The notes under the pieces: generated by a model
Database searches by the model: none
What the model was told of the DNA's origin: nothing
The model's input: only the letters and a program-made list of their open reading frames with translations
Position numbers and translations under genes: made by a program
Shown here: positions 19,392 to 39,303 of the stretch, in pieces
Numbering within the stretch: position 1 is the stretch's first letter
How the letters are laid out: every line of letters starts with the position of its first letter
Source of the DNA: Entophlyctis helioformis
Taxonomy: Eukaryota; Chytridiomycota; Chytridiomycetes; Chytridiales; Chytriomycetaceae
Reading direction: 5' to 3'
Assembly: GCA_025526915.1 (NCBI GenBank)
Contig: JAHLKH010000060.1
Span: 62,001-126,000 of the forward strand
Length of the DNA stretch: 64,000 bases

Positions 19392-20999
19392 TCAAGGGGT
19401 GCGAGCCATGGCATTGACGGAAATGCCGCGCAGCTCGTCAGAAGGATCGCGCTCCATCAACTCGCGGAAAGCCTGCTTGATGGGCTTGCCTTGGTAGAGA
19501 ACAGCGTACACCTGGTCAGTGATGGGCGAATCGACGTCAAGGCGACGGGCGAGCTCGTAAGCAGCCTTGGTGGTGGCAACACCCTCTGCCACAGATCCGA
19601 GAGAAGTGACAATCTCCTCGAGGGTCTCGCCCTGGCCAAGGCGGTAGCCGACAGTAAAGTTGCGCGACTTTTCAGACGTGCACGTGAGAAGCAGGTCGCC
19701 AACGCCGCTCTGTCGGTCGTGTGCCATGCAAAGTGTGGATTAGCATTACAGACAAGACATGCTCAATGGTCGGCGATAGGGTCCATGCTTACAAGGCCGG
19801 CAAAAGTGAGCGGGTTAGCGCCAAGAGCGATGCCAAAGCGAGTAATCTCTGCAAGGCCGCGAGTAATGAGCGCTGCCCGCGAGTTCATCTGGAATCCGAC
19901 GCCAGAGCAGGCACCAGACGCAAGGGCAATGACGTTCTTGAGTGCACCAGCAACTTCAACGCCCACCGTGTCGTGGATCTCGTAGACGCGGAAGTGAGGG
20001 GCATGAAAGAGCCGCTGAGTGCGCTTGGATCGAAGAGTCGACTTGCTTGCCACCGACACGCACGACTGCACATCAAGCGGCGCATTTTACCAGAGCAATG
20101 ATTGCATCCGACAGCTGGTCAGCAAGCGGGATGGCGGTGCAGCAGGAAGGTGTGTAGGACGGCACAAACGACAACCAAGGCGGCTTACAGGCTGGCGTTT
20201 GACGATTTCGGCAGCAAAGCTTGGACCAGAAAGGAATGCGGCGCGCTCGCCAATGTCGCTACCGCAGACTTCAATGGCAATGTCGTTGGGAAGCTTGCCT
20301 GTCGACACTTCGATGCCCTTGTTGACAAACACAACCAGGTGGCGCAGCGAGAGGTTGCCACGAATCTGCTGGAGGATGGATCTGTGCCGTCGGGTGCAAA
20401 AGGTCAGCGGCCAGCCAGCACTGGCACATGTAGCAGCGTGCGATCGATGAACGAACCGCATGTGTTGAGTGGGGATGGACATCAGAATGACAGTGGCGGC
20501 CTCGAGCGTCTCTGCCGAAAGGGATGTTGTTGCTTTGAGAGTGGGGCTCAGCTCGACCTGGCGGGCTCGCTTGGTGAGTCTCGGCAACAGGCCAGCGGGC
20601 AGTGGTGCGCCTGCTTACATTGGGCATGTACTTGTGGTTCTTGTGATCGTGGTTGATGCCGTCGACGAGACGCTGGTCTCTGGCCCAGATGGTGACGTCG
20701 TGCCCAAGGTCTTTGTTGAGACGAGACGGCATGCCGCATCCCGCCACGCCATGCGGAGGCGTTCATGTGACGTTTGTCCATCCATCGTCAGCCAGACGCC
20801 TGGGCCGGTGCAAACGGCAGGCTTGCGCTGTGCCGCACAGGCGGGCAGCGCAGACAGACAGACCTGAGAGGTGGTCTGCGAGGCAGGTTCCAAAGTTTCC
20901 AGCGCCAACAACGAGCACGCGCTCAGGCGAGCCGTCTGAGCCGTCCGAGGTCTCTCTCAGCGCAACTGGGCTGTCCTCACGTGACAGGATGGCACCCAT
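19392..20999 (-). CDS. NAD-dependent glycerol-3-phosphate dehydrogenase, GpsA type
   Basis: Reduces dihydroxyacetone phosphate to sn-glycerol 3-phosphate with NAD(P)H, feeding lipid synthesis and redox balance. Six minus-strand exons (20864-20999, 20619-20710, 20457-20557, 20189-20381, 19793-20065, 19392-19709) join in phase to 370 residues, the usual length. Motifs in order: Rossmann loop [85 protein letters not shown] with the catalytic-region Lys, and [18 protein letters not shown]. The GPSFA and GDLLLTC forms are those of bacterial, plastid and trypanosomatid GpsA enzymes; classical fungal Gpd1 has different sequence there. The C-terminus (NAMARTP) is not a PTS1 signal. A truncated Fanzor copy lies about 70 bp upstream of the start codon. 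Confidence 0.9.
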
Positions 21000-21065
21000 T
21001 GTCAGATTGTTTAATGGACGACAAGAAATGATAAAGTCGATCCTGGTCGACAGGCTGATCGACTG

Positions 21066-21890
21066 GCGTGTGCGTCAAGTAGAGCGGCCGTTGTCCAAAG
21101 AGCAGATGCCACAGTGCGACCATCCCGATGTTGGTGGCTCCAAGCACATCGCGGTGGTAGACAGTCTTGCATGGTATGCACTCGTAGCGTCGCAGGTTGG
21201 TGCGGTTCTTGTCTGGGATCCGCTGCTTGCACTGCGGGCACATCTGGCTGGTCAGGTTCTCATTGCAGCGGTAGATCTGTGTGTGTGTGTGTGTGCATGA
21301 TCGTGTGTCAGTTGGTGCACAGATGGATGGATGGATGGACAGCATGGCATCAGACGCACATAGGCATATCCAGACGACCGCAGATGCCTGATGAGAAACT
21401 TCTCAAACACAGCGTGCCGGCCACCTTGGCCTGTAAAGTCGATGCCAAATGCCCACACAACGGGAATGTTGTCCTTTGCTGACTTTGTTCGGTCGACAGG
21501 GAGGCCCTGAGACGCACGAGATGCGCGATATCTAGTGGTCGATCCTGCCAGCTTCATGATGCCCTCAAGAGCGTTTCCGCGATCAGACGTGCGGCTGCTG
21601 CGCATGGTGAACCGCTTGTCCTTGACCTTCTGTGGAATGCCATGCCATGCCATGCCATCCAGTGCAATCAGCAGGCAATCAAGCAGCATGGCGGCCGTGT
21701 CAATGGGCATACAGAACCAGAGAAACCGTACCCGTGCATTCAGGAATGGCGTGCAGTACGCATGGCAGCGCAGATCCCAAAAGGCTCTCTCGCCAGGCTT
21801 GACGTTTGGATCGGCATGCTTTGCTGTCTTGAATGCAATGGCCTCGTGGACGTTCGCAGCCTTGGCAAGTCGATTGTTGAGCCTGGCACA
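21066..21890 (-). pseudogene. 5'-truncated Fanzor (TnpB-like nuclease) copy
   Basis: Carries the C-terminal half of a Fanzor. Minus-strand order: exon with EAIAFKTAKHADPNVKPGER and FWDLRCHAYCTPFLNA, an intron, exon with KVKDKRFTMRSSRTSDRG and IPVVWAFGIDFTGQGGRH, an intron ending in a CA repeat, then NENLTSQMCPQCK, RRYECIPCKTVYHRDVLGATN (split: zinc ribbon CPQC/CIPC and RuvC-III HRD). The NEN-TS glutamate is where many eukaryotic Fanzors keep the RuvC-II acid. It is nearly identical, introns included, to the plus-strand copy at 38.08-38.87 kb. Homology begins within the intron just before an exon start (around 21890) and ends near 21066, so RuvC-I and the whole N-terminus are absent. A further open frame runs on upstream to an ATG at 22215 but resembles nothing I know. 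Confidence 0.8.
21278..21296. repeat. (GT)n microsatellite in Fanzor copy intron
   Basis: Read on the minus strand it is a CA run ending directly in the cag splice acceptor before the zinc-ribbon exon. The plus-strand Fanzor has the same arrangement. Confidence 0.8.
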
Positions 21891-22661
21891 GGAGCTTCTG
21901 TGATGCAGATGTGCACATCCACGGCTTGCAGGCTGTCGACACTGCCCGACGGTTTGTATCTTGAGCGAGGCAGCGTGGGCAGTTGGGCATGCCGACCAGC
22001 AACAGCGATGCGTTGCACTTGGGCTGGACACTGTTGCTCAGGACTGGTGGGAGTCTGCAGCCGCTCGTCTCCATGGCCATCTCGGACTGTCCGGCCATCG
22101 TGATCTTGGAAGTCGCGAGCGTGGCGATCTCGGCGGTCGTGGCAGGGCCGCCTCGGTTGTCGGAAGAGGGAGCCGTGCTTCCGACAAGGCTTGCATGAAT
22201 CGTGCTGGCCATCATGTGTCACGCCAGCACACACCGCCCGCAGCACGCAGCACGCAGCACGCACCGTGACGCCACCAGCGGGGGCAAACGCGTCCAGCAC
22301 ACGGTCGGAGTTTGTGTGGTTGGACGGATTGCGTCAAAGCCAGAACTCGCCGAGCGCTGTCCTGGCGTCCAACCTCCGCCTCAGATTCACTGGGTCAGAG
22401 CAGATCCCCCGCCGCATCTGGCAAGGTGGCGGCAAGGCGAGCGGAGCCAGCGAGAACGGCCCAACAGTGTGCTGGGAAACACGCATGAATCGCGCACGAA
22501 CATGGAGCGAACAGGCTGCTGGAGGCACACAGACACGCCAGATCTCCGCCCGGCCGTCTTTCCCTCGTCCCCGACATCCTCTTGCACACAGCAACACACA
22601 ACAACGCACATCAACACACACAGCAGCCTACACAACAGTGCAAGCACCATCCATCCAAGCA
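21891..22661. other. Intergenic stretch upstream of the repeat-bearing gene
   Basis: Roughly 770 bp between the truncated Fanzor and the plus-strand gene at 22662. A minus-strand open frame covers 21883-22215 (includes LVGMPNCPRCLAQD) with no recognisable family. A short tandem of about four GCAGCAC-like units lies at 22237-22263. Nothing else could be supported. Confidence 0.5.
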
Positions 22662-24887: not shown

Positions 24888-25389
24888 ACTGTCCTGTCCT
24901 GATAACTTTCTTCTGTCTGTTGATGTTTTTCTTGAAACACTTCTACCTCAATATACCTTCTTTGTGTCGACTCAACCTTGGTGCATTCTCATGATGATCG
25001 CCTGACATGGAAGGCGAGGATGCAGTTGTCATTCTGCCTATCATTCCAATGCCATCCGCCAGCAACAAGAAGTTCGGCCAGCATGTCATACCACGATCAA
25101 AGAGTCTGCAGCCTGCATGGTCGACCAGTGGGCGATGCTCATCTGCAAGCATCCACCGACAAGTGTGCGACTGTTGAGGTCGACATTGACGATCCTTGGC
25201 TCTGAGGCGACGCTGGAGTGGCTGGATGGCAGGCGGATCGCGTCTTGTGCGCGGCTGGCAGCATGCAATGCCGCGATGCTCTTGAGGTGCGGCAGTCTGT
25301 GCACTCGTAGCGTCGCAGGTTCGTGCGGTTCTTGTCTGGGATCCGCTCCTTGCAGGTTCTCGCCAGAGTGGTGGATCCGTGTGTGACTC
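24888..25389. other. Intergenic region containing only a Fanzor relic
   Basis: About 500 bp between the repeat-bearing gene and the Sel1-like gene. Apart from the short minus-strand Fanzor fragment at 25292-25366 I see no gene or RNA. Confidence 0.6.
25292..25366 (-). pseudogene. Fanzor zinc-ribbon relic
   Basis: The minus strand reads GAGAACCTG, then jumps to CGGATCCCAGACAAGAACCG and CGACGCTACGAGTGCA, the same order as the zinc-ribbon exon of the two larger Fanzor copies. The segment with the first CxxC pair is deleted, and sequence after the third Cys diverges, so no working domain is possible. Confidence 0.65.
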
Positions 25390-27550
25390 ATGCCCCTCCT
25401 TTCTCAATATCCAACAACGATGGCCACACGTCTCGGCCTGCGTGGACGGGCCGCCTGGTGGGCATCACATGGACAGCATCCACCGACGGCTCAGCGAGTC
25501 AATGCAGCACAGCAGCAGCCGCCGCCGCCGTCTTCGTCGTCGCCACCTTCGTCGTCTGCGTCTGCACCCTCGGCATCGCACTCTCCGTTTCATGGACGGC
25601 AGCCGCCTGGCAGCCACAGCAGCAGCGCCAACAACAGCCATGCCAACAACAACCATACTGGCAGCAGCCATGCTCGCTCGTCGTCGTCGTCGTCGTCGTC
25701 CTCTTCATCGTCGTCGTCGTACGGCTCTGCATTCTCTGCATTCTCTGCGTTCCTCAATGCCCCTGTTGGGTCTCAGGCACAGGTGGTTGCCCAGCTGATT
25801 GCTGCCACTGGCGGCACCCTCTCGGCGCATTGCTTTGCGGCCGACGATCACCGGCTGCCGTCCGATGACTCACTGGTACCGTGGGCTGATCTCGTCGATG
25901 GCCTGCTGGCCCCGATGCCGCAGCAGTCTGCGCCGGCCGCACCAGCAGCAGTCCCCAGCACACCATCTGCGCCATCCGCTTTTGCAGCAGCAGTTGCACG
26001 ACAGCACGGGCATGTGCAGGGAGCCAGCCAGGGGTTTGGCCTCTCCGTGCAACGCCAGGCATTTCCGTCGCATGTGTGGAAGCTTCCGCACCAGCTGCAC
26101 CAGCTGCACCAGCTGCACACGGTCGCAGTAGTCAGCATCACGGGGATCGAGTCCATGCCCGCTCAGCTGCTCTCTTGCCGCCAGACCCTCTTATTGGCAC
26201 CTGCTGTCGAGCCACAAGTGCAAGCCGCCAACGCCAACGCCAACGCCAACGCCAACGCCGTCCAGCATCGAGTTGCAGTCCTCCCAGCCGACGCGCCACA
26301 CCAATCGCGTCTGGCCTGCACTCCAGGCCAATACATGCACGCTGCAGCCGCCTCCTGGGCCAAGTCGGTCACAGACGCAGATGCAAAGGAAGCCAATCTG
26401 CGAGGCCTTCTCGCTTTGCAAAAGTCTGGATTGGCAGGCGTCGTGGGCTCCAGAAAGCACGATCGGGCCTCAGCAGCAGCAGCAACAACAACAACATCCA
26501 AAGCGAACGCCTTGAGCGCAGAAAGAGACGCCGAGGCGTGGTTTGTGGCTGGTGCAGCACTTGGCGATGCCCAGTCGGCATACAATGGCGCAGCTCTGCT
26601 CGACTCGCCGCCTTCTACATTGCGACCGTCCGCACCAGCATCGCCGCGCGCCACCACCCATCCGACCGCACACAGCCAGAGCTTGGAGACGCGTCCAGAG
26701 TTTGGCTCGCGCTCAAGCCGCGCCATTGTTCTGTACCGACAAGCAGCCAACCAGGGCCATGCGCGCGCACAATACAACCTGGCGCTTCTTCTCCTCCGTC
26801 GCTACAAAGCTCTGGCGGCATCGCCTTCGTTGTCTGAAGCGGACCAGAGCGAATGCAATGCCTTGCTGACCGAAGCCGTGGGCTGGATCCAAAGAGCAGA
26901 ACAGCAAGGGATCGTTGAAGCTGGGCGGCTATCGCGGCTTTTCAAGACCCTTGATGGCAACTCGGCGATGCAGCAGGATGATACCCGTGCGCCGATCAGG
27001 CCACCGGCCGACGCAACACACGGCAGCTTGGATGCACATCCAACCGAATCTCTGGTTCGTTTTTGCCACCAGCTAAACGCAGTGCAGCAGCAGCAACAGC
27101 AGCAGCAACAGCAGCAATCCGGCACCTCAACGCTAGGTGCATCAGGCATGCCGCGGGCTGATTTGCTTTCAGCGTGTGAGGCTGCGGCTCAGGCGGGCTC
27201 GTTTGTGGCTGCCTTTGATGCTGGCGTGCTGCGCGAGCAAGCAGGCGACTACATCGCGGCATGTCGGTGGTACAAGCAGGCAGCCCGGTCGTCAAACGCA
27301 TCCCTCCGCGTTGGTAAGCGGCTGTGCCCTGATCCTTGCCCAAGTGATCGTCCGTTGATGGCTCACACATGCACCACGGCGCTGTACTACAGATGCGCTC
27401 TTTAATCTTGGCAATGTTCACGCACAACAACTTGGCGACCATGATGCAGCACGTGAGTGTCTCGAAGCGGCTGCCGACCTTGGAGATGCAGATGCAGCGC
27501 GCTACTTGGACATGCTAGGGCTGCTGGTCAAGGTTCATCTGGAGCGTTGA
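25390..27550 (+). CDS. Sel1-like (TPR-type) repeat protein
   Basis: Likely adaptor or scaffold of the Sel1-like repeat class. Two exons (25390-27313, 27393-27550; phase 1 intron, gtaagc...acag) give 693 residues. ATG 25420 (MATRLGLRGRAAWW) is an alternative start whose basic, hydrophobic sequence could act as a mitochondrial presequence; this is inference. After a Ser/Gln/His-rich region (poly-Ser near 25680, QLHQLHQLHQLH near 26100, Ala-Asn repeat near 26230), Sel1-like units appear: AIVLYRQAANQGHARAQYNL (26725), SAEQ-like units near 26880, DYIAACRWYKQAARSSNASL (27250) and, across the intron, DALFNLGNVHAQQLGDHDAA. A Gln run of eleven lies near 27085. The repeats fit the alpha/alpha hairpin pattern (G-A-x-x-x-L) but are degenerate. 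Confidence 0.75.
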
Positions 27551-29419: not shown

Positions 29420-30175
29420 ATGCCCGTGTCCGTTGTCCTCGCAGCGCTTCCATGGGTGGCCGTCCTCGCTGCACTCCCCGGTGTTGCTGCGCAAAGCCAC
29501 ACAGGCAAGCTCACTTTCTATGATGTCGGCCTTGGTGCATGCGGCCGTACCAACACCAATGCAGAGGCTGTTGTTGCCGTGGTGAGTCTTGCGTGTTTGT
29601 GGCGCCGGTGCACAGTTGCGAGTTGGCAACTCACACCTTGGCAGTCCGCCCAGCTGTACGACCAGTACAGAGGCGCTGCATGCGGCCGCACCATCTGCAT
29701 CAACGGAGACGTCATCCGTGCCCGCATTGTTGACCGCTGTGAAGGCTGCGCATATGGCGATATCGGTATGAGAACCGGGCCCTTGCTTCTGTGGTTGACG
29801 CTTGGACTGACTTGCACGCCGTGTGCCACGTTAGACGCCTCGCCAACGCTCTTCCAGCGCATCGCTCCGCTTGACGTTGGGCGGCTTGATGTGGCATGGC
29901 GCTTCTGCGACAGCGCGAGTGCACCAGCACCTCCGGCACCTCCAGCGCCTCCCCGCCAGCCTCAGCCGTCTCCGCAACCGCCTGCACCTCCCCGCCAGCC
30001 TCAGCCGTCTCCCCAGCCCCCTACACCTCCCCGCCAGCCATCATTGTCTGCTGCGCCATCGCATGTGGCCACAACGATGGCCACGGTGACCATCACAACC
30101 TCGGCCAGATCGTCCCCCACTCCCCACGCCCATGTGCCCGTCGAGCAGCGTAGAGCATGCATGGTTCGCCCTTGA
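29420..30175 (+). CDS. Secreted DPBB (barwin/expansin-like) protein with Pro-rich tail
   Basis: Small secreted protein with a double-psi beta-barrel, a fold found in barwin, expansins and RlpA-like proteins that contact cell-wall polymers. Starts at ATG 29420 with a signal peptide (VVLAALPWVAVLAALPGVAA, cleavage after about residue 24). Two introns, 29582-29644 (63 nt) and 29766-29834 (69 nt), keep the frame open, but removing them restores the domain. DPBB motifs: GKLTFYDVGLGACG, CGRTICINGDVIRARIVDRC, CEGCAYGDI followed by DASPTLFQRIAPLDVG and LDVAWRFC. The His-Ala/Asp pair of active expansins is not evident. The C-terminal third repeats PPAPPRQPQPSPQ, like a wall-anchoring linker. About 207 residues. 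It lies just inside the left inverted repeat, so it may be cargo or an ordinary neighbour. Confidence 0.8.
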   Translation: MPVSVVLAALPWVAVLAALPGVAAQSHTGKLTFYDVGLGACGRTNTNAEAVVAVVSLACLWRRCTVASWQLTPWQSAQLYDQYRGAACGRTICINGDVIRARIVDRCEGCAYGDIGMRTGPLLLWLTLGLTCTPCATLDASPTLFQRIAPLDVGRLDVAWRFCDSASAPAPPAPPAPPRQPQPSPQPPAPPRQPQPSPQPPTPPRQPSLSAAPSHVATTMATVTITTSARSSPTPHAHVPVEQRRACMVRP

Positions 30176-30247
30176 TGATTCCCTTTAATACTGCCATTCA
30201 ACTGTTATCCGCCATAGAGCTTGGCCCGGTTCTCATACCATTACCCC

Positions 30248-30390
30248 TGGTGGAATCGCTGTGATTGGTCAATCCTGGTGGAATCGCTCTGATTGGTCGA
30301 TCCTGGTGGAATCGCTGTGATTGGTCAACTCTTGGTGGAATCGCTGTGATTGGCCGATCCTGGTGGAATCGCTGTGATTGGTCAATCTAG
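30248..30390. promoter_or_regulatory. Five tandem 28-bp repeats, each with an inverted CCAAT box
   Basis: Units start at 30248, 30276, 30304, 30333 and 30361 with consensus TGGTGGAATCGCTGTGATTG followed by GTCAATCC. Each contains ATTGG, the reverse complement of CCAAT (NF-Y/Hap core). The spacing of 28-29 bp keeps the boxes at about 2.7 helical turns. The array ends 30 bp before an ATG (30421), the position of a core promoter. Confidence 0.65.
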
Positions 30391-30420
30391 AGAGCCCTTG
30401 CTCGGTGCAGACACTGAGCG

Positions 30421-31586
30421 ATGCGAGCACAGCAACAACGCGCCATGCCAGATCCAGACGCTGCTGCACTTGCCGCCCAACTGCACACAAGCAACAACGA
30501 GCCAAACGACAACGACGGCAACGCAGGCGTCAGCACGGATATGGGACAACACTCGCTTGCTGGACGAGTCCTTCAGGGGAGACTGTGAGGCTCACTGCTC
30601 ATGGTGGCATGCAGCAGGCCATGCAGCAGGCCATGCAGCAGAGCAGCGTGGTCGTGGCCGTCTGAGAGGCGTGCCCAACAAGGCGGGCGGACAGAAGGCA
30701 GGCCACAGACAGGCAAGCGGGTGCGTTGACTCGCTGTCTGTCCAGGCATGCTCCATTTCCACTTGACGACGACGGCACAGCAGTCTGATGGCCGTGTCTG
30801 TGTGGGCTTGGCACTGAATGTGTGCATGTCTGATGGCTCCAAACAGCAAGGGACGTTGGCAAGACGGCCGTGAACAGGGCGATCTGGTTGTTGTTCAAGA
30901 GGACAGCGAGAGCAGTGGCATTGCAGGGCCGAGCTGCCTGGTGCTTTCCGACTGCGACATGGGATGCAGCAGCAGCAGATGAGCAGCCACTGAGATGTGC
31001 TCAATGGATCGATCCTTGGAGTTGGCTGCAGGAACTGCTTGCTGGATAGCTGGATTGGCATGCCGACTTGGATGCCAAACAAGGCAGTGGCAGCACACTC
31101 GATGAGCAGCACACTCGACGACACTGATCCAGATGAGGTTGGTGAGGAGGACGCGAGTTCTGGCAGGCGTGTCTGGCCACATTGCACTTGGTGTGATGGC
31201 ATCTTGGATGCGATCCACTGAGCAGCACATGGAGTGGCCAGACAGACAGACCAAGCACTCTCGATCCATTCAACAACCACAACGATGATGATGGCGATGG
31301 TCCTGACGATCCCAGTCTTGCATGCACTGTGCTTGTTGACAAGGACAATCCAGAGCAGAGGGGCGTTGCAGGCAGTGCGCCAACGGCCAACCTGTCCATG
31401 GACCAGCTGGCCAGTCAGGCAACACCAACTGCATCGCACTGGGCCACAATGCAGATGCATATCAGGACGCTTGTTGGATGCAATGGGACATTGACTGAGA
31501 AGACGACACTCGGAGAGAGGCTCGCTGCAATGCAGCTCATGACACGCAGAGTGATGCTGCACGGTGCATATCAAGCTGCGCACTGA
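30421..31586 (+). CDS. Putative acidic protein of the accessory block (exon model uncertain)
   Basis: I do not recognise this gene. ATG 30421 opens a coding-like exon (MRAQQQRAMPDPDAAALAAQ) ending near 30584 at a gtgagg donor. A second likely exon starts at 30847 after aacag and joins in phase (GRWQDGREQGDLVVVQEDSE). Further coding-like stretches are DDTDPDEVGEEDASSG near 31110-31160 and DPSLACTVLVDKDNPEQRG through LTEKTTLGERLAAMQLM (31290-31540), closing at TGA 31584-31586. The acidic, Asp/Glu-rich character is consistent between pieces, but splice sites between the last two are not settled. Its promoter position directly behind the CCAAT array suggests it is expressed. A 336-codon open frame on the opposite strand looks less coding to me. 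Confidence 0.4.
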
Positions 31587-31825
31587 GTGGCATCACATCA
31601 ATGACTGTGCCAGCAACACACGACCGCATCTTGAACGCCTGGCTGTTGGCTGTGCTCGCTGCTCCCTCTATGGCTGTTGGACAGTGGGCGGCGAGTGCCA
31701 GACTGCCCGCTCTCTATCCACTCGCTCTCTGTCTGTGTCAGCAATGAAAGTTCAACTCCGCCAGACGCTCCGATTCTTTTCTCGTAAACACAGATACAGA
31801 CACCCCACGCACCAGCAGCACCAGC

Positions 31826-34800
31826 ATGACTTTGGTAGGCCTGCTGAGAGCCTTCAAGGTACGCCGTGCCGTCTGCGACCACACCGGCAAGACTTTTGGC
31901 CATGCTGTGCAGCGTGTGCTCCACAGCATGCTGCCACAACAGCCGCCTCTGCAACAGGCCAACAGCAGACTGCAACAGCTGCAACAACAACAGCCGCAAC
32001 CACCCAGTTCATCAGCGGGATGCTGCACGTCGACTTCCTTAGCATCTTTCACCCAGCATTGGTCGCAACAGCCGCCATCAGCCAGCCAGGCTCCAAGGCC
32101 GGCTGGAAAGCCATCATCCAGCCGGCCTTTGAGCAGTTCATGGCGTCGCTTGGCAGCGGCCACACCATCCGCTTCCATGTGGATGGCCAGCTTGGCGACC
32201 TGGGCCTCAAGCTGGTCCACAACAGCCGCACCAACAACATGCTGCATGCAGCAGCCAAGGTCTTGCGGCATGCATTCCAGCGTCAGGAAGGTCGCCACTC
32301 TGGTTCACTTTCAAAGTAAGATCGCCGCTGTGTACTGTGTGGTTGCCTTACTGACCATTGTCTGCTGTTGGCCATCAAGGACAGAGAAGCACGCCCTCCA
32401 CCGCTTCTTCTGCCTTACAATCGCCGATAAGAAGGCGATCTATGAGGCTCTCTCAGAGCTGGCTGGATCCAAGGAGGCGTGCACAGTCTGCCCATGTGAC
32501 TATGAGGCAGACGTGTGCATTGCCTGCCGTGTTCGCGAGTCCAGGTTAGATCGCCTTGCATTCTTCTGCTGTAGTTGATGGCTCACAGTCTGCATTCTGT
32601 GACAGTGACCAGCCAATCATTGTCATTGCCAATGACTCTGATCTGGTGGCACATTGTGCTGGGCACTGTGCGGTCATTTTGACGCACTTGGAGCATGGGC
32701 AGCTTGTGCAGATGCGATCCTACAATCATGGTGGGCTTGCCACCATGGCATCTGTCTTGGGTGTGCACGACTTTGCTGGAGCATGCCAGCTGGTCGCTGC
32801 ACTGTCCAGGACAGATTATTTTGGCCGCCCTGGCCATGGTGAGTTGCCGCGCCTGTATTGTAGTATCTGCCATCACTCACATGCCATTCTTTGTCTACAT
32901 GCGCGATTCTGCTTGCATTCCCTGCCAGGAATCGCCGCCGCGGTCAAGTTTGTCAATGCGCGGTTTGATGCCAAGGCCAAACAGCTCAACATCAAGGCGG
33001 CTGACCTCTGCGCGATCCTCGAGACTCCTAATGAGGCCAAGGCGTTCATGGACGGCGTCAGGGACGCGTACATCGAGGAGCTGGTCAAGAATGGTGATGA
33101 GAGCCTTGTCCAGGCATTCAAGAACGCATTTGAAGTCTTTGTCAACCGGAATGAGGTTGGGGCCTCTGCTGGTGCAATCACAGCGCCGATCGTCGCGAGG
33201 TATGTTTATTCTTGAAGGATGTCATGGACATGATGGCATTGACGCGTTTGAATGCCTTGCACAGATCTGAGCCTCAAGCCAACCACACCAACCACATGGA
33301 TGTCAACACGACTCCATCTGTTGGAATGAAGTATGAATGCATGGAATCTGTGGCGTTTCTGGCAAAACTGACACTGAGTTTCTGTTTCTGATGCTGCGAT
33401 CTTGTTATTGTGCAGGTGCTTGATGGATGGATGTTGTTTGAGCCATACTGCGCAGCAGCAGCAGCAGCAGGCTGAGAACGGCGTCCAGCTTGTCCACCTG
33501 ACACGTGGCAGGGTCGAGCAGCTTGTCAGCAGCACTGTTGGCAGCAGGCGGTTGGATGCTGCCTTCAGTGAGGTGAAGGGTTGCCATGTGGCACTCGACA
33601 CCATCATCAGGTGCACAGTCAACCGCCTTGCGAGCAGCTACGATGCTGTCACGCGTCGCGACATCCTGGCGGCCATCTGCAAAGCAGCAAGTGCCCAGCT
33701 GCTGCAGATTGCCAGCGAGCAGTTTCTTGGCGCAGATGGCATTTTTAAGCTCCTCCCAGCAGATGAGCCAATCTATCGCGCATTGGTATGTTTGCATGGC
33801 TTGAATGCATGCTGTTGCTATCACACCACGTGCATTTGCTGATTTTGAATGCGGCTGACTTGATCCATTGCTTCTGGACAGAACGCAGCAATGAGAATGC
33901 AGACGCAGCTGACAAGATTGCCAATCCGCCATGCGCATCCCACCGGCATACATCCACTCCCAGTAGGTGTTGATTGCATTGAAATGATTCAACAGCATCC
34001 ACTCACAGATCCATTTGTGTTGAATGCATAGTACTGGACACAGAGACGCAGAAAGTCGAGTACCACGGCAGGATGACCACGCGAGTTGCACCGCGATCCA
34101 TTGTCGCTGCTATCCACGACAAGGCTCAGCCTGGCTGTATTTCCTGGAGCACCCCATAGGTCCACATCCAGAAAACGCCAAACCGCCGACACTCATCAAT
34201 CAGCGCCAAAAGGCCGTCGCCCTGCTGCAGTCCATCATTGAGCAAAGTGCAGTGCGTCTCGACTTCCACTGACTGCATGTGCATGGAATGATTTGGCGCG
34301 ATTGCTCACCATCCCACTCCACAGGTTGGCCCTCCTCCACCGCCGCCCAAGCCACCACGGTTGTCCAACAACATTTTCGCAGCACTGGCATGCTCCAAGA
34401 CCTTTCCTGTTGGCGATCTTGCCGACACTGAGACGACGGTGAGTTTGGTGCACCATTGGCGATTGTGGCTGTGTTTGGTGCACTTGGAATGGCCGCCTGA
34501 TGCTGCATCCAACCGTCACAGGCGCCATTCCAATTCACGGCAGCCAAGCGGGCTGCACACACAAAGGAGCGTGCCAAGAAAAAAGAGAAGGCCACACTAC
34601 AGGAGATCATCAGAGAGAACAAGAAGAAGTCAGGCCTGCATGCTCGCAAGGCTGGAACTGTTGGCAAGAAGAAGGCGTACGCGACATATGGCATGTCATG
34701 TGCCTTGAATGTGCTTGCTGACACGTGTGTCATGCCACAGATGGGTTGCTGGCAGTCGAGTGGCAACTCGTCAGAAGCTTGCAAAGCTCGGCCGCATGAT

Positions 34801-35571
34801 TGCGATGCCAGTCATGACACTTGCCGCGGCCACCCATCCCAAAGGACAGCCAAGACCTAAAGGCAATGCACACAGCCGCCCTGAGCAGATTGTCAAAATG
34901 GCGGTATGGGGTTTGATCGGCATGCTGCTCTGTTTGCTTGGCTTTGTGGATGCTGACTTGTGTGGTATGCAGGAGATGCAGTCATGCGATCTCGCAAACA
35001 CCAAGTTTTTTGGGCCCCAAACCAAGACACCACTCGCCGAGCAGACACCCAGTTCAATCAGCCACGACACCACCCTCACAGTCTACTATTTCACGGCCGG
35101 CTTGTGGCGTGCTGCCCTTGCCTTGATCGGCGCCATGGTCGCGGATCTGGTCAAGCTGAATGCAGACGCGCCTCTGCCTCTGGAGTACTGTGTCCTGGAG
35201 GCAAGCCAAGGCAAGCTGACGCAGTATTACTATGTCAACCCGAGGACTTTGATGAGGACGAGAGCGCGACGCTCTTGTCAGGTGGATGCATTCACAAGCA
35301 GGGCATCATTGTTTGGCACATGTACGGCACCGGCCCGCACAGCAGCGACACAAAGATCCCTCGCTATGGCAGCTTGGTGACTCTCGAGAGTGACACGGCT
35401 CTCAAGATCTGCGCCTTTGATACTGCCAAGATTGCCAAGCAACCCAACATGCATGGCGACCTCGACGATCAGGACGAGCAGAACGAGCACGACGAGCAGG
35501 ACGAGCAGGACGAGCACGACGAGCACGAGCTGCCTGTGCAGCCTGACGACCATGCATCAGGACGAGCATGA
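31826..35571 (+). CDS. XPG/FEN1-superfamily (PIN-like) nuclease of the accessory block
   Basis: Predicted structure-specific nuclease. Exons 31826-31858, 32008-32315, 32380-32544, about 32605-32838 and 32931-33200 join in phase and follow the XPG order: MTLVGLLRAFK (N-terminal start), GMLHVDFLSIFHPALV, HTIRFHVDGQ (metal-binding Asp), CDYEADVCIA (XPG-I acidic pair), PIIVIANDSDLVAHC (second acidic cluster), then LSRTDYFGRPGHGIAAAVKF, matching the GxDY and helix-hairpin-helix GxG of FEN1, Exo1 and GEN1. Downstream exons (33266-35571) add an unassigned region (RGRVEQLVSSTVGSRRLD), a Lys-rich helix (ERAKKKEKATLQEIIRENKK) and an acidic Asp/Glu/Gln/His tail near 35460-35560, ending at TGA 35571. One-base frame changes occur near 34130, 35030 and 35240. 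It overlaps the Fanzor frame by 20 bp, so a single fusion is possible. Confidence 0.6.
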
Positions 35572-38500
35572 TGTGCACAATCAGCCGACAGCAGCCAGCA
35601 GCACCGGCGCTTCATCTTCAGCCGTCCAACCGCCACCACCACCACCACCAGCAGCAGCAGTTCCATCAGCAAATGAGCTGCTTACGGCCCTCACCAGCAG
35701 TATATCAGGTGGAGGCGGTGCTGTGGACATGCTGCTGCGCCATCTTGGCTATGTCCTGGCGGACAGCATGATGGTGCAGCCGCAAGCAACCAAGCATGCC
35801 ATCCACTCCTGGATCGTAACAGTCATGCAAATGACGATCCATCGCACCTGGACGCGGAGGGTGCTGCAAACCAACGCAGCCAAGCTGCAGGATGACACGG
35901 TACGGATGGACATGATGCAGACGTGCACGATGCTGATGGACATGTCACTGATTGATGCAATGCAGCAGGCGGCCACAGAGCACAGCGACGCGTTCCAGAA
36001 AGACGCGCGGCAAGCAGCCATGATGGACATGGCACAGATGGACACGATGCGAGCAGCCATGATGGATGCCGACATGATGGACGCGACGCAGCAGACGGTG
36101 ACAATCCAGGCCGACGCGATCCTGTCAGCCGTGGTGCAGGCAGATGCAGAGCTGTCGGCCTTGATGCACACAAGTGCGCAGACGGCAGACGCTGTGCACG
36201 CGGGCACTATGGAGGCTGTCTTGCCCTACAGGCTTGATGGCAGCCTTTGCGCGGATGCAAGGATGACATTTACAGCAATCTGGCCAGGGATGTGTGTGGC
36301 ATGCTCGCGCGGCACTACATCTCTAGCCAGTCTGAGCTGGCCGTCACTGCAGCCCTCAAGCTGATGCCCAGTGCATCCATTGAGGACGTGAGAGTGTGGA
36401 TTGCGGCACTTTTCAAGACCGCCAAGGCTGCCAAGGCCGCCAAGGCTGCTGCTGCCAAGGCTGCCAAGGACGCTACACCACCGGCGATCGAGGACGCCAC
36501 ACCGCTGGCCACTTTGGACACTGCTCCTCCCACCTCAAGTCTCAAGCGGGGCCGGTCCACCTCTTCGTCAGCCAACAAGGGCGGCAGGCCCAAGAAGCGA
36601 CGGGGCAGGAAGGCAGCCACCACCAAGGACGCGGCATCCAGCTCTTCCTCGGCCACTGAGGACAGCGGTATTGATACAGTCCCGCAAGAGCTGCACGAGC
36701 TCAAGACGCTGGTGCCTGATGTGTCTCGGTCAGAGATCGTGATCTTTTACGAGCTGTCCAAGCTTGCTGGCACGACAAACAAGCTGTGCCCGCAAGCAGC
36801 CAGCCGCGATCCCTTCATCCTCATCACCGAGACAACGCTCTTTTGGGCGGTGATGGGGAGTAGTGATGATCGCATCCGTGGCGAGCAAAGTGCTGCTTTG
36901 GCATACTTGCGACTGCAGCTCCTTGCTGTACTCAGTAGGTCGCACTTGTTTATGCCATGTCTACATGATATGATGCTGACACTCCACTTTTATCCAAGAC
37001 TACCAAAAAGCCAGCTTGGGCCTCGCATCACCAACACGACGATCAAGAAGGCGTTCAGCAATAGCAAGGAGCTCTGTATCCTCAACATACTCCTTCCCGG
37101 CCTCCGCCCCAAGAAAGGCCGCTATCAGACGCCAGACGAGGCCGACAAGGAGGTGTTTGAGCAGGTCCAAGCAAATGACGCAGTCATTGCTGATGCGATG
37201 CAACTGGCTGATCACGAGGGTCTGGTTGGCAAGGAGCGCCAGGAGTTTATAGACGCCGTGATCGATGGTCTTCCTCCTGCAAGTCCAAGCAAACCGACCG
37301 CGGTGGGCAGCTTCCGGACGGACGGATACAGCATCTTTCAGCTGGCGCTGGACTATCGCACAGACCGTCCAGAGTCGCCTCGCAGTATGTGGCGTGCTTG
37401 AATGCTTTGGTGCACACATTGGTTCTGACTGCCGCCTTGATCTGCATGCTCCAACATGGCATCTTTAGGCGAGCAGCCAGCCTTGCTGATGGCATGCCTG
37501 ATGATGATGATGATGATGATGAGGCTGATGACGATGATGGCATGATGGGCATGATGGGCATGATGGGCATGATCACTTGGATGGCGAATGTGAGTTGCTG
37601 TGCCAATCCAGACGACACTTGTTGTCCACACCGACTGACATGCCATCCACAGCTGCCGATCCAGCCGACCCATCAGCCACCAAGCCAAAGCGACCAATCC
37701 TGTAAGTCCACTTGCATGCCAACCTCGGCATTGGTGCACATGCATTGCACATTCCTCACTCATGCCATGGCATGACAGGGCAAGCTCAGCTTCTACGCCT
37801 CGCAGCGACTGCCAACATTGTCAAAGCCAACAAGTTGTTCACCAACAAGGGCTACCGGTTTGTGCGTATTGTCGGCATTGATTGGGGCGAGCGGTACATG
37901 TATGGCGCGTCCAGCATGCTGGTCGATCTGGCAACCTTTCACCTATACCCTCGAGTCCAACTACGTGCTCTCCTCTGGCATGGCACGAGCGAGCACAGCC
38001 TTCAGCGGTGGTATGCATGCAATGACTCTGCCACGGCACTCTTGACCAGATCAACTCACAGTGCCTGCCTCTTGTGCCAGGCTCAACAATCGATATGCCA
38101 AGGCTGCGGACGTCCACGAGGCCATTGCATTCAAGACAGCAAAGCATGCCGATCCAACGTCAAGCTGGCGAGAGAGCCTTTTGGGATCTGCGCTGCCATG
38201 CGTACTGCACGCCATTCCTGAATGCACGGGTACGTTTCTCTGTTCTGAATGCCCATTGGCATGACCGCCATACTGCTTGATCGCCTGCTGATTGCACTGG
38301 ATGGCATGGCATGCATGGCATTCCACAGAAGGTCAAGGCCAAGCGGTTCACCAAGCGCAGCACAGCACGTCTGATCGCGGAAACGCTCTTGAGGCATCAT
38401 GAAGCTGGCAGGATCGACCACTGGCAAGCGCGCATCAGCTGCATCTCAAGGCTGCTGTGACGAGCCAACAGAGAAGGACATTCCCGTTGTCTGGGCATTT

Positions 38501-38930
38501 GGCATCGACTTTACAGGCCAAGGTGGCCGGCATGCTGTGTTTGAGAAGTTTCTCATCAGGCATCTGCGGTCTCTGGATATGCTATGTGCGTCTGATGCCA
38601 CTGTCCATCCCATCCATCTGTGCACCAACTGACACACACCACACACACACACACACAGATCTACCGCTGCAACGAGAACCTGACCAGCCAGATGTGCCCG
38701 CAGTGCAAGCAGCGGATCCCATACGAGAACCGCACAACCTGCGACGCTACGAGTGCATACCATGCACGACCGTCTACCACCGAGACGTGCTTGAGCCACC
38801 AACATTGGATGGTCGCACTGTGGCATCTGCTCTATGGACAACGGCCGCTCTACTTGACGCACACGCACCTGACAGCAATCCAGCCACACAGAGTACCTTG
38901 CAGACATCAAGGCAACTCATCATGACATCC
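35552..38930 (+). CDS. Fanzor, eukaryotic TnpB-like predicted RNA-guided nuclease
   Basis: Fanzors are eukaryotic homologues of IS200/IS605 TnpB; characterised members cut DNA guided by an RNA from their own 3' region. The frame begins at ATG 35552 (MHQDEHDVHNQ) with Pro and Met-rich low complexity to 36230. An exon from about 36244 (DDIYSNLARDVCGMLARHYI) includes a nuclear-signal-like KKRRGRK. Then come AVGSFRTDGYSIFQLALDY (37300), a poly-Asp stretch (37500), RuvC-I IVGIDWGERYMYGASSM (37870), the segment shared with the truncated copy (38081-38229, 38331-38590), NENLTSQMCPQCK with a RuvC-II-type Glu (38672), and RRYECIPC plus HRDVL (RuvC-III) near 38745-38790. Relative to the minus-strand copy it lacks single bases in several homopolymers, shifting frame inside RuvC-III; these look like sequence errors. 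The final stop is therefore uncertain. Confidence 0.7.
37500..37572 (+). repeat. GAT trinucleotide run and GGCATGATG tandem repeat
   Basis: A run of seven GAT triplets (poly-Asp), then four copies of a 9-bp ATGGGCATG-type unit encoding Met-Met-Gly. It lies between the TDG motif exon and RuvC-I and may be exonic or intronic. Confidence 0.7.
38632..38657. repeat. (CA)n tract at Fanzor splice acceptor
   Basis: CA repeat ending directly in cag before the zinc-ribbon exon, at the same position as in the minus-strand Fanzor copy. Confidence 0.8.
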
Positions 38931-39303
38931 AGTGGCGTGCACAACATCACATCATGCTGCTCGCGACACCGCCTGATCAGCCTGTCGTCCAGCAGCCTCC
39001 GTCACCCGATCTGCTTCCCTTCAAGTCGCATGTGGCCTCATGGGATCAGATCATGCTGCCATGTCTGCCAACAACAACACTTTGAATCGGGGCACCTCCC
39101 GATCGACCTAACGGGTCACTTCATAGAAGGTGAGACCCTCGTTGGATGTGCCTCGCCCGCCTGTCGTCGCATGCTCGTTGCTGACTCGAACCTTCCATCG
39201 TGTGATGTGGGCTTGCATCCGTCGCCTCTTGGGTCGAATTTAACTCCAAAATCCTTGGTAATTGTATGAATATCGGGCCCACACGACGTCCAAAAGCCGT
39301 CGA
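38931..39303. other. 3' flank of Fanzor, candidate guide-RNA region, and right end of block
   Basis: No convincing gene. In characterised Fanzor and TnpB loci the guide RNA is encoded from the end of the nuclease gene to the element boundary; by analogy 38931-39115 is where it would lie. From 39116 to 39303 is the CUE gene promoter. I identified no specific RNA structure. Confidence 0.3.
39089..39115 (+). repeat. Right inverted repeat
   Basis: Ends CTCCCGATCGACCTAACGGG, the reverse complement of the left repeat at 29281-29306 apart from one substitution in the outer 21 bases. Confidence 0.7.

Follow-up and report, generated by a model that had tools for sequence, protein, structure and literature searches.

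This work describes an amplified DNA transposon of about 9 kb with terminal inverted repeats (TIRs) in the chytrid Entophlyctis helioformis, which probably carries a nuclease and a Fanzor, a eukaryotic relative of the CRISPR enzyme Cas12, encoded together as one fusion gene. The copy from which the analysis started lies in a 64,000-nucleotide stretch of assembly GCA_025526915.1 (contig JAHLKH010000060.1, positions 62,001 to 126,000 of the forward strand), referred to here as the window. An initial annotation of the window had placed a unit of adjacent nuclease and Fanzor at 31826-38930; its location held, while its extent proved too narrow, as the transposon with its inverted repeats, which that annotation missed, runs from 30223 to 39279. 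According to the accessible parts of the sources, Fanzors are already known inside TIR transposons (PMC3627910), and Academ transposons are known to carry a nuclease (PMC10045372); the new part is the fusion of nuclease to Fanzor. We tentatively propose, at somewhat less than even confidence, a TIR transposon in which one gene yields a FEN/EXO1-like nuclease plus Fanzor that would serve to cut the emptied site, resect it and allow copy-back. The features of the window copy are as follows.

30223..39279, plus strand: whole transposon, 9,057 bp; homology of copies stops near 30225 and 39279-39281, and the ends are paired
30223..30245, plus strand: left terminal inverted repeat GGCCCGGTTCTCATACCATTACC, from the genome-wide end search
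30243..30387, plus strand: subterminal repeats with a spacing of ~28 bp, adjoining the left end (repeat family D4)
31826..33199, plus strand: XPG/FEN-like nuclease, predicted, exons 1-5 of the joined frame (31826-31858, 32008-32290, 32385-32544, 32606-32838, 32929-33199); four GT-AG introns, the same introns being recovered by spliced alignment
33416..34903, plus strand: linking exons 6-11 (33416-33785, 33882-33962, 34032-34251, 34325-34438, 34522-34676, 34741-34903), from spliced alignment of the window to the model of copy L041; no domain recognized by Pfam
34973..36934, plus strand: exon 12, with acidic linker and junction, from spliced alignment; frame broken in the window copy
35464..35585, plus strand: Asp/Glu/His/Gln-rich linker of 9-bp units (repeat families D2 and D6), differing in length among copies
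36999..38892, plus strand: Fanzor part, exons 13-19 (36999-37393, 37477-37589, 37653-37701, 37779-38007, 38081-38229, 38329-38589, 38659-38892), from spliced alignment; the window copy has numerous gaps of one base
39115..39279, plus strand: conserved right end past the L041 stop codon, putative guide-RNA scaffold, from column identity
39257..39279, plus strand: right terminal inverted repeat GGTAATTGTATGAATATCGGGCC, complementing the left end imperfectly, from the genome-wide end search

The genome searched was a 29.6-Mb assembly of 482 contigs that includes the window; copies are designated here by L numbers and contigs by C numbers. With up to three mismatches allowed, the left end occurs 86 times and the 26-nt right end 164 times genome-wide, and the reversed-pattern controls gave 0 in both cases. 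Read as its complement, the right end is GGCCCGATATTCATACAATTACC, which forms an imperfect inverted repeat with the left end. When the 100 right ends listed of the 164 were considered, 42 of the 86 left ends could be paired with a right end within 25 kb, and 28 of these 42 paired elements span 7.2-9.8 kb. Alignment to the window begins at 30225 in L040 and breaks off at 39279 in L041 and at 39279-39281 in L040, L042, and L043. An 8-bp target-site duplication is exact in 6 of the 20 copies read at both ends, and a further 5 agree at 7 of the 8 positions, compared with 1 equal pair among 380 mismatched left-right combinations. The flanks of L004 and L040 also carry 8-bp duplications (read by eye), the C219 copy has 11 bp common to both flanks, flush with its ends, and the C5 copy has 8 bp, shifted by two. 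A weak insertion preference, approximately C/A-A-A-A/G-N-N-N-G/C and in register at both sides, was read from distinct flanks, 57 on the right and 38 on the left, repeats being left out. With terminal inverted repeats and a fixed-length 8-bp duplication, the family has the end structure of a cut-and-paste TIR transposon.

The pairing of the two halves recurs across the genome. For the nuclease exons, 132 of 422 candidates were scored and at least 242 matches obtained, of which the 150 listed form 86 loci; a query with the Fanzor zinc-finger exon, scored for 150 of 405 candidates, gave at least 150. Among the matches listed, a same-strand Fanzor lies 4.5-10.5 kb downstream at 45 of the 86 nuclease loci, and a Fanzor or right end at 52; an opposite-strand Fanzor at the same distance was found at 1 locus and an upstream one at 0, against a rough chance expectation of 1.5. 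The coupling of nuclease and Fanzor put forward by the initial annotation is thus borne out, and the possibility that it is peculiar to a single locus, which that annotation had named as its own refutation, was looked for and is rejected. Between the 42 paired ends, the matches listed place both halves in 18 elements, Fanzor only in 15, nuclease only in 2, and neither in 7, the absence of a half meaning little in this count.

What moves the element is the point on which the main alternative turns. The element may be non-autonomous: the fusion would be real, an unrecognized transposase acting in trans or hidden in the mid-region would move the element, and the XPG-like part would help transposition, as the nuclease may in AcademX transposons, rather than act at Fanzor cuts. 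Inverted repeats and 8-bp duplications, both present in this family, are marks of DDE-type transposition. Three copies of about 1 kb carry both element ends (L004 at C109:11836-12880, C436:7860-8911, and C35:164492-165480; the latter two have one left flank in common and so are copies of a single insertion). Judged by their sequence, they are internal-deletion derivatives that retain the right-end module, and movement in trans is possible because they hold both ends. Academ lineages, moreover, bear a helicase or a nuclease, according to the available text (PMC10045372), although AcademX duplications measure 3-4 bp against 8 here. Pfam recognized no transposase domain in the element, a genome search for the hAT dimerization domain gave 0 matches (its control was silent), and a search for KDZ transposases gave 4, in contigs C334, C271, and C396, compared with listed element ends only. 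These KDZ matches are transposase remains, three of the four carrying stops. On this evidence we consider this alternative possible, if on the whole unlikely. Elements of 14-15 kb were also considered as autonomous relatives and rejected for L076 (C69) and L077 (C151), both read in part. These two 14-kb copies hold a nested retrotransposon with long terminal repeats, in opposite orientations, which we take to be of the Gypsy type from pol-like frames recognized by eye; their left ends contain repeats resembling the subterminal repeats of the window.

The case for a single gene rests chiefly on two copies outside the window. Exon 12 of L041 (contig C140) is intact and open over 1,981 nt, running from upstream of the acidic linker into Fanzor, and exons 3-19 join in phase over 1,765 codons with zero stops and with GT-AG introns of 61-215 nt. 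In L043 (C13), which belongs to a diverged subfamily, a 596-codon open frame crosses the junction. Five upstream modules of L043 have 33-50% protein identity to L041, with synonymous divergence (dS) of 1.0-1.9 and nonsynonymous divergence (dN) of 0.42-0.70; its exon chain 6-12 matches that of L041, with phases largely matching (by eye, the exon 7-8 border being approximate), and its exon-5 donor is GC rather than GT. The full predicted fusion comprises 19 exons and about 1,870 aa, and a single spliced transcript is predicted for it.

Several observations count against a single intact gene. L041 is itself imperfect, because one base is missing from exon 2 and the donor of intron 1 is altered. 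None of the six modeled full-length copies is free of frameshifts relative to the L041 model (window, 17; L039, 8; L040, 3; L041, 1; L042, 5; L043, 12, the last stemming partly from misaligned low-identity stretches). Database gene models stop the nuclease early (P0001), and a protein database search returned no long annotated fusion. The last two observations are also what would be expected if nuclease and Fanzor were neighboring genes of one transposon, expressed as separate transcripts or with alternative ends, the gene models then being the nuclease-only proteins that they appear to be. Against such a two-protein arrangement, which we judge improbable, stand the absence of an in-frame stop in L041 exons 3-19, the position of the junction inside one open exon in both L041 and L043, and an exon 6-12 chain that matches between copies whose dS exceeds 1.

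The nuclease half is predicted to be an XPG/FEN/EXO1-like 5' nuclease by its fold. Exons 1-5 of the window join into one open 326-aa frame without a stop, which holds HVDG, DYEAD, NDSDL, and TDY...GHG in that order, as the initial annotation had read them. Sixteen nuclease regions were modeled; L052 was dropped to leave an alignment of 15, nine of which entered the alignment for invariant residues. Seven acidic residues (D20, D70, E146, D148, D169, D171, and D229) are invariant in all nine, and we take these to correspond to FEN1 active-site residues. The predicted structure gave fold matches to EXO1, T5 FEN, FEN1, and XPG and shows the fold of the XPG/FEN/EXO1 5' nuclease superfamily; the structure alignments used eight of the nine members and left out P0009, the gene model of which continues into unrelated sequence. 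In nine comparisons dN/dS was 0.22-0.47 (the L050/L051 pair was left out, as L051 requires a frameshift), a range that places the nuclease under purifying selection, at least until recently. Twelve of the 16 modeled regions need no frameshift, two of these having a stop at an exon edge.

The XPG/FEN-like identity claimed initially is therefore upheld by fold matches and invariant acidic residues and fails the profile check, and the following results speak against it. The second structure model has a mean predicted local distance difference test score (pLDDT) of 52, and the first (P0001), too poor, matched no known structure. No curated Pfam XPG profile scored over its cutoff, matches lying only beneath it: XPG_I_2 was found in five of nine members (best, 5.6e-4), beneath the 24.2-bit cutoff. 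Searched genome-wide, XPG_I_2 returned host loci only (contigs C1 and C38) and zero element copies, and a profile search of Protein Data Bank (PDB) sequences with the nuclease returned nothing. Aligned by hhalign to the XPG-I region of host RAD2, the nuclease reached a score of 15.2, whereas the highest among 30 shuffles was 23.8; hhalign against the host C38 protein gave a score of 27.9 (E value, 0.0095). Sequence therefore does not show kinship of the nuclease with host XPG genes. Host XPG_I matches sit at loci apart from the element, in C1, C43, and C2. Comparison of the nuclease members with PHROGs gave no family common to more than one of them.

The downstream Fanzor, which the initial annotation had placed on the same strand, is confirmed by a Pfam domain and by its motif. 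The zinc-finger region of L041 matches PF07282 (Cas12f1-like_TNB) at 7.6e-11 and 42.5 bits against a cutoff of 26.3, and NCBIfam TnpB models match the Fanzor part beneath cutoff. The Fanzor1 motif is given in the available text of PMC3627910 as D-X(125,275)-[TS][TS]-X-X-C4 zinc finger-X(5,50)-RD; here, D-X(184-187)-TS-X2-C4-X5-RD was found in five of six models, some after read-through. The window copy conforms only after read-through, its own frames having the zinc finger without the following RD motif, and the L042 model lacks the motif owing to a frameshift. A PDB search with a single Fanzor-part sequence returned nothing. Fanzor activity is a prediction for the C-terminal half.

Beyond the stop codon, the right end (approximately the last 150 nt) has a mean column identity of 89% over 13 copies and stays conserved even in copies whose nuclease has only about half identity. 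Such conservation would suit a guide-RNA scaffold, the role that we propose. Weighing on the other side, RNAalifold found no covarying pair there, and shuffled columns performed at least as well as a hairpin picked by eye; for these reasons no guide-RNA structure is claimed. An Rfam search of the right end returned none; of two folds computed from single sequences, one did not exceed shuffles in stability. Window positions 37306-39279 align with L043:6182-8021, which spans the 3' Fanzor module and the right end. DNA identity between window and L043 is 87% over 37306-38866 and 89% over 39075-39279, against 66-75% in two matched upstream stretches, and the 3' module therefore seems to have been exchanged or homogenized between subfamilies.

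The window copy itself is broken at many points, having the most frameshifts of the modeled copies. The open frame at 34960-35571 (plus strand) does overlap an ATG at 35552 by 20 bp within an Asp/Glu/His/Gln-rich stretch, as first reported, and the L041 and L043 frames described above support the idea of a local flaw, at 35.55 kb, in a single fusion. The one-base error first proposed needs correcting: two bases, 35549 and 35557, are absent from the window and present in both L041 and L042, and the frameshifts extend across the copy. Of these two bases, all four close relatives have only 35557; the linker of L039 and L040 shows further differences. In total, 51 bases missing from the window are present in all four relatives. 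Two length-variable spots, 31959 and 31980, account for 22; of the other 29, 21 fall within 37.5-39 kb, where substitutions relative to L039 are not raised, and 18 adjoin an identical base. For these one-base gaps, assembly error fits at least as well as decay. That the family is dead, its copies decayed relics and its architecture without present function, is quite unlikely: the window copy has its 17 frameshifts and no matching duplication in its flanks (the latter a further point against our reading), and all six modeled full-length copies require at least one frameshift, but the frameshift-free nuclease regions and their dN/dS, together with the clustering of 21 of the 51 gaps without extra substitutions, argue otherwise.

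Under the fusion-gene account that we favor, the element would leave its site, after which Fanzor, directed by a guide RNA from the right end, would cleave the donor site left empty. Resection of the 5' ends at the Fanzor cut would fall to the tethered EXO1/FEN-like nuclease, and repair from a copy still holding the element would restore it at the emptied site. Cas12-type cuts leave 5' overhangs; resection is assigned to the fused nuclease because of these overhangs and because its closest folds are 5' nucleases. The guide RNA, the cutting of the element-free site, and the resection role are all parts that we infer. In the available text of the sources, Fanzor1 right-end element RNAs (reRNAs) include the target-site duplication in their scaffold and extend ~15 nt beyond it (PMC10711439), a cut-and-copy idea has been put forward for TnpB and Fanzor (PMC10432273), and the role of Fanzors for their carrier elements is called unknown (PMC10432273, PMC10711439). 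The present element would itself name a partner of Fanzor in the form of a 5' nuclease of the FEN/EXO1 type, which is subject to purifying selection and probably part of the same protein; if the account is true, nature would offer here an RNA-guided nuclease that comes with its own end processing. A bolder version, which we regard as doubtful, makes the fusion the whole engine of the element: without a DDE transposase, the element would spread through a single giant protein, in which Fanzor would cut by RNA guide and the tethered EXO1/FEN-type nuclease would process the ends. If true, DNA would be moved here in a new way, by the natural counterpart of an engineered fusion of Cas12 with an exonuclease.

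A few further observations concern the surroundings of the window copy. Similarity of L039 to the window continues to 40967, past the right end of the element, and L039 therefore has its right flank in common with the window. Sequence 3' of the right end is the same in the window element, L005 (C122), L006 (C408), and L007/L039 (C36); because four contigs have the same right flank, the element and flank are, by this reading, either duplicated together or alleles. A left-end-like sequence with 3 mismatches lies at 29759-29781 on the minus strand, 0.44 kb ahead of the element. Two more Fanzor fragments occur on the minus strand at 20980-22333 and 25089-25403, the larger resembling the exons at 37.8-38.9 kb. 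Minus-strand frames at ~27.7-29.2 kb resemble the CCR4-NOT subunit CNOT9/RCD1 (recognized by eye).

Searches beyond this genome found the pairing in this species alone, which bears on the claim that it is conserved elsewhere: it holds for many loci of the genome and for no other species in the searches made, a further count against the reading proposed here. Residues 1-460 of the L041 fusion gave no hit at an E value of 0.01 in a long-protein search, and none was found at 0.001 for the Fanzor region in a query of 1,266 aa. Each of three protein searches scored ~8,000 candidates, limited to 0.55-1.75 times the query length, and shorter Fanzors elsewhere were thus beyond their reach. Viral contigs gave 23 pattern matches and 0 relatives. 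In the literature, searched mostly outside subscription journals, no publication was found that joins Fanzor with XPG or describes a fused or exonuclease-bearing Fanzor element of this kind; searches of it on Fanzor in chytrids and on E. helioformis turned up nothing comparable, and a publication naming Fanzor together with FEN1 concerns, in its available part, gene integration.

The comparison with known systems follows the accessible portions of the published descriptions. The FEN1/EXO1/XPG 5' nucleases have the order of acidic motifs and the core fold in common with the element nuclease, the sequence of which is too distant for curated profiles. Known Fanzor1 transposons, like the element here, have the Fanzor1 motif, terminal inverted repeats, and target-site duplications; they carry Fanzor alone or next to a transposase, with no mention of a fused nuclease, whereas the two are predicted to be fused here. 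The MuDR-like ROr-4, PBl-3, and MCi-4 likewise show no transposase. Known fungal Fanzor families show duplications of 9, 11-12, and 6 bp and TA, in contrast to the 8 bp seen here, a length matched by the IS4-type Fanzor element of Ectocarpus. The nuclease of AcademX is of the XPG type. AcademX is, like the present family, a DNA transposon lineage with a nuclease; its duplications of 3-4 bp and a description that leaves Fanzor unmentioned set it apart from an element with 8-bp duplications and a Fanzor (PMC10045372). The ~1-kb deletion copies resemble the Fanzor-less "ghost loci" of Spizellomyces. The closest counterpart in host is SpuFz1/Spu-1 of Spizellomyces punctatus, which shares with the present element a chytrid host, a Fanzor1, inverted repeats, no transposase found between them, and the existence of Fanzor-less copies (PMC10432273). 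Spu-1 measures ~2.1 kb, encodes its protein of 633 aa in a single frame, and has duplications that are putatively TA; the element described here has a length of 9 kb, 8-bp duplications, and 19 exons for a predicted protein of about 1,870 aa with an XPG-like N terminus.

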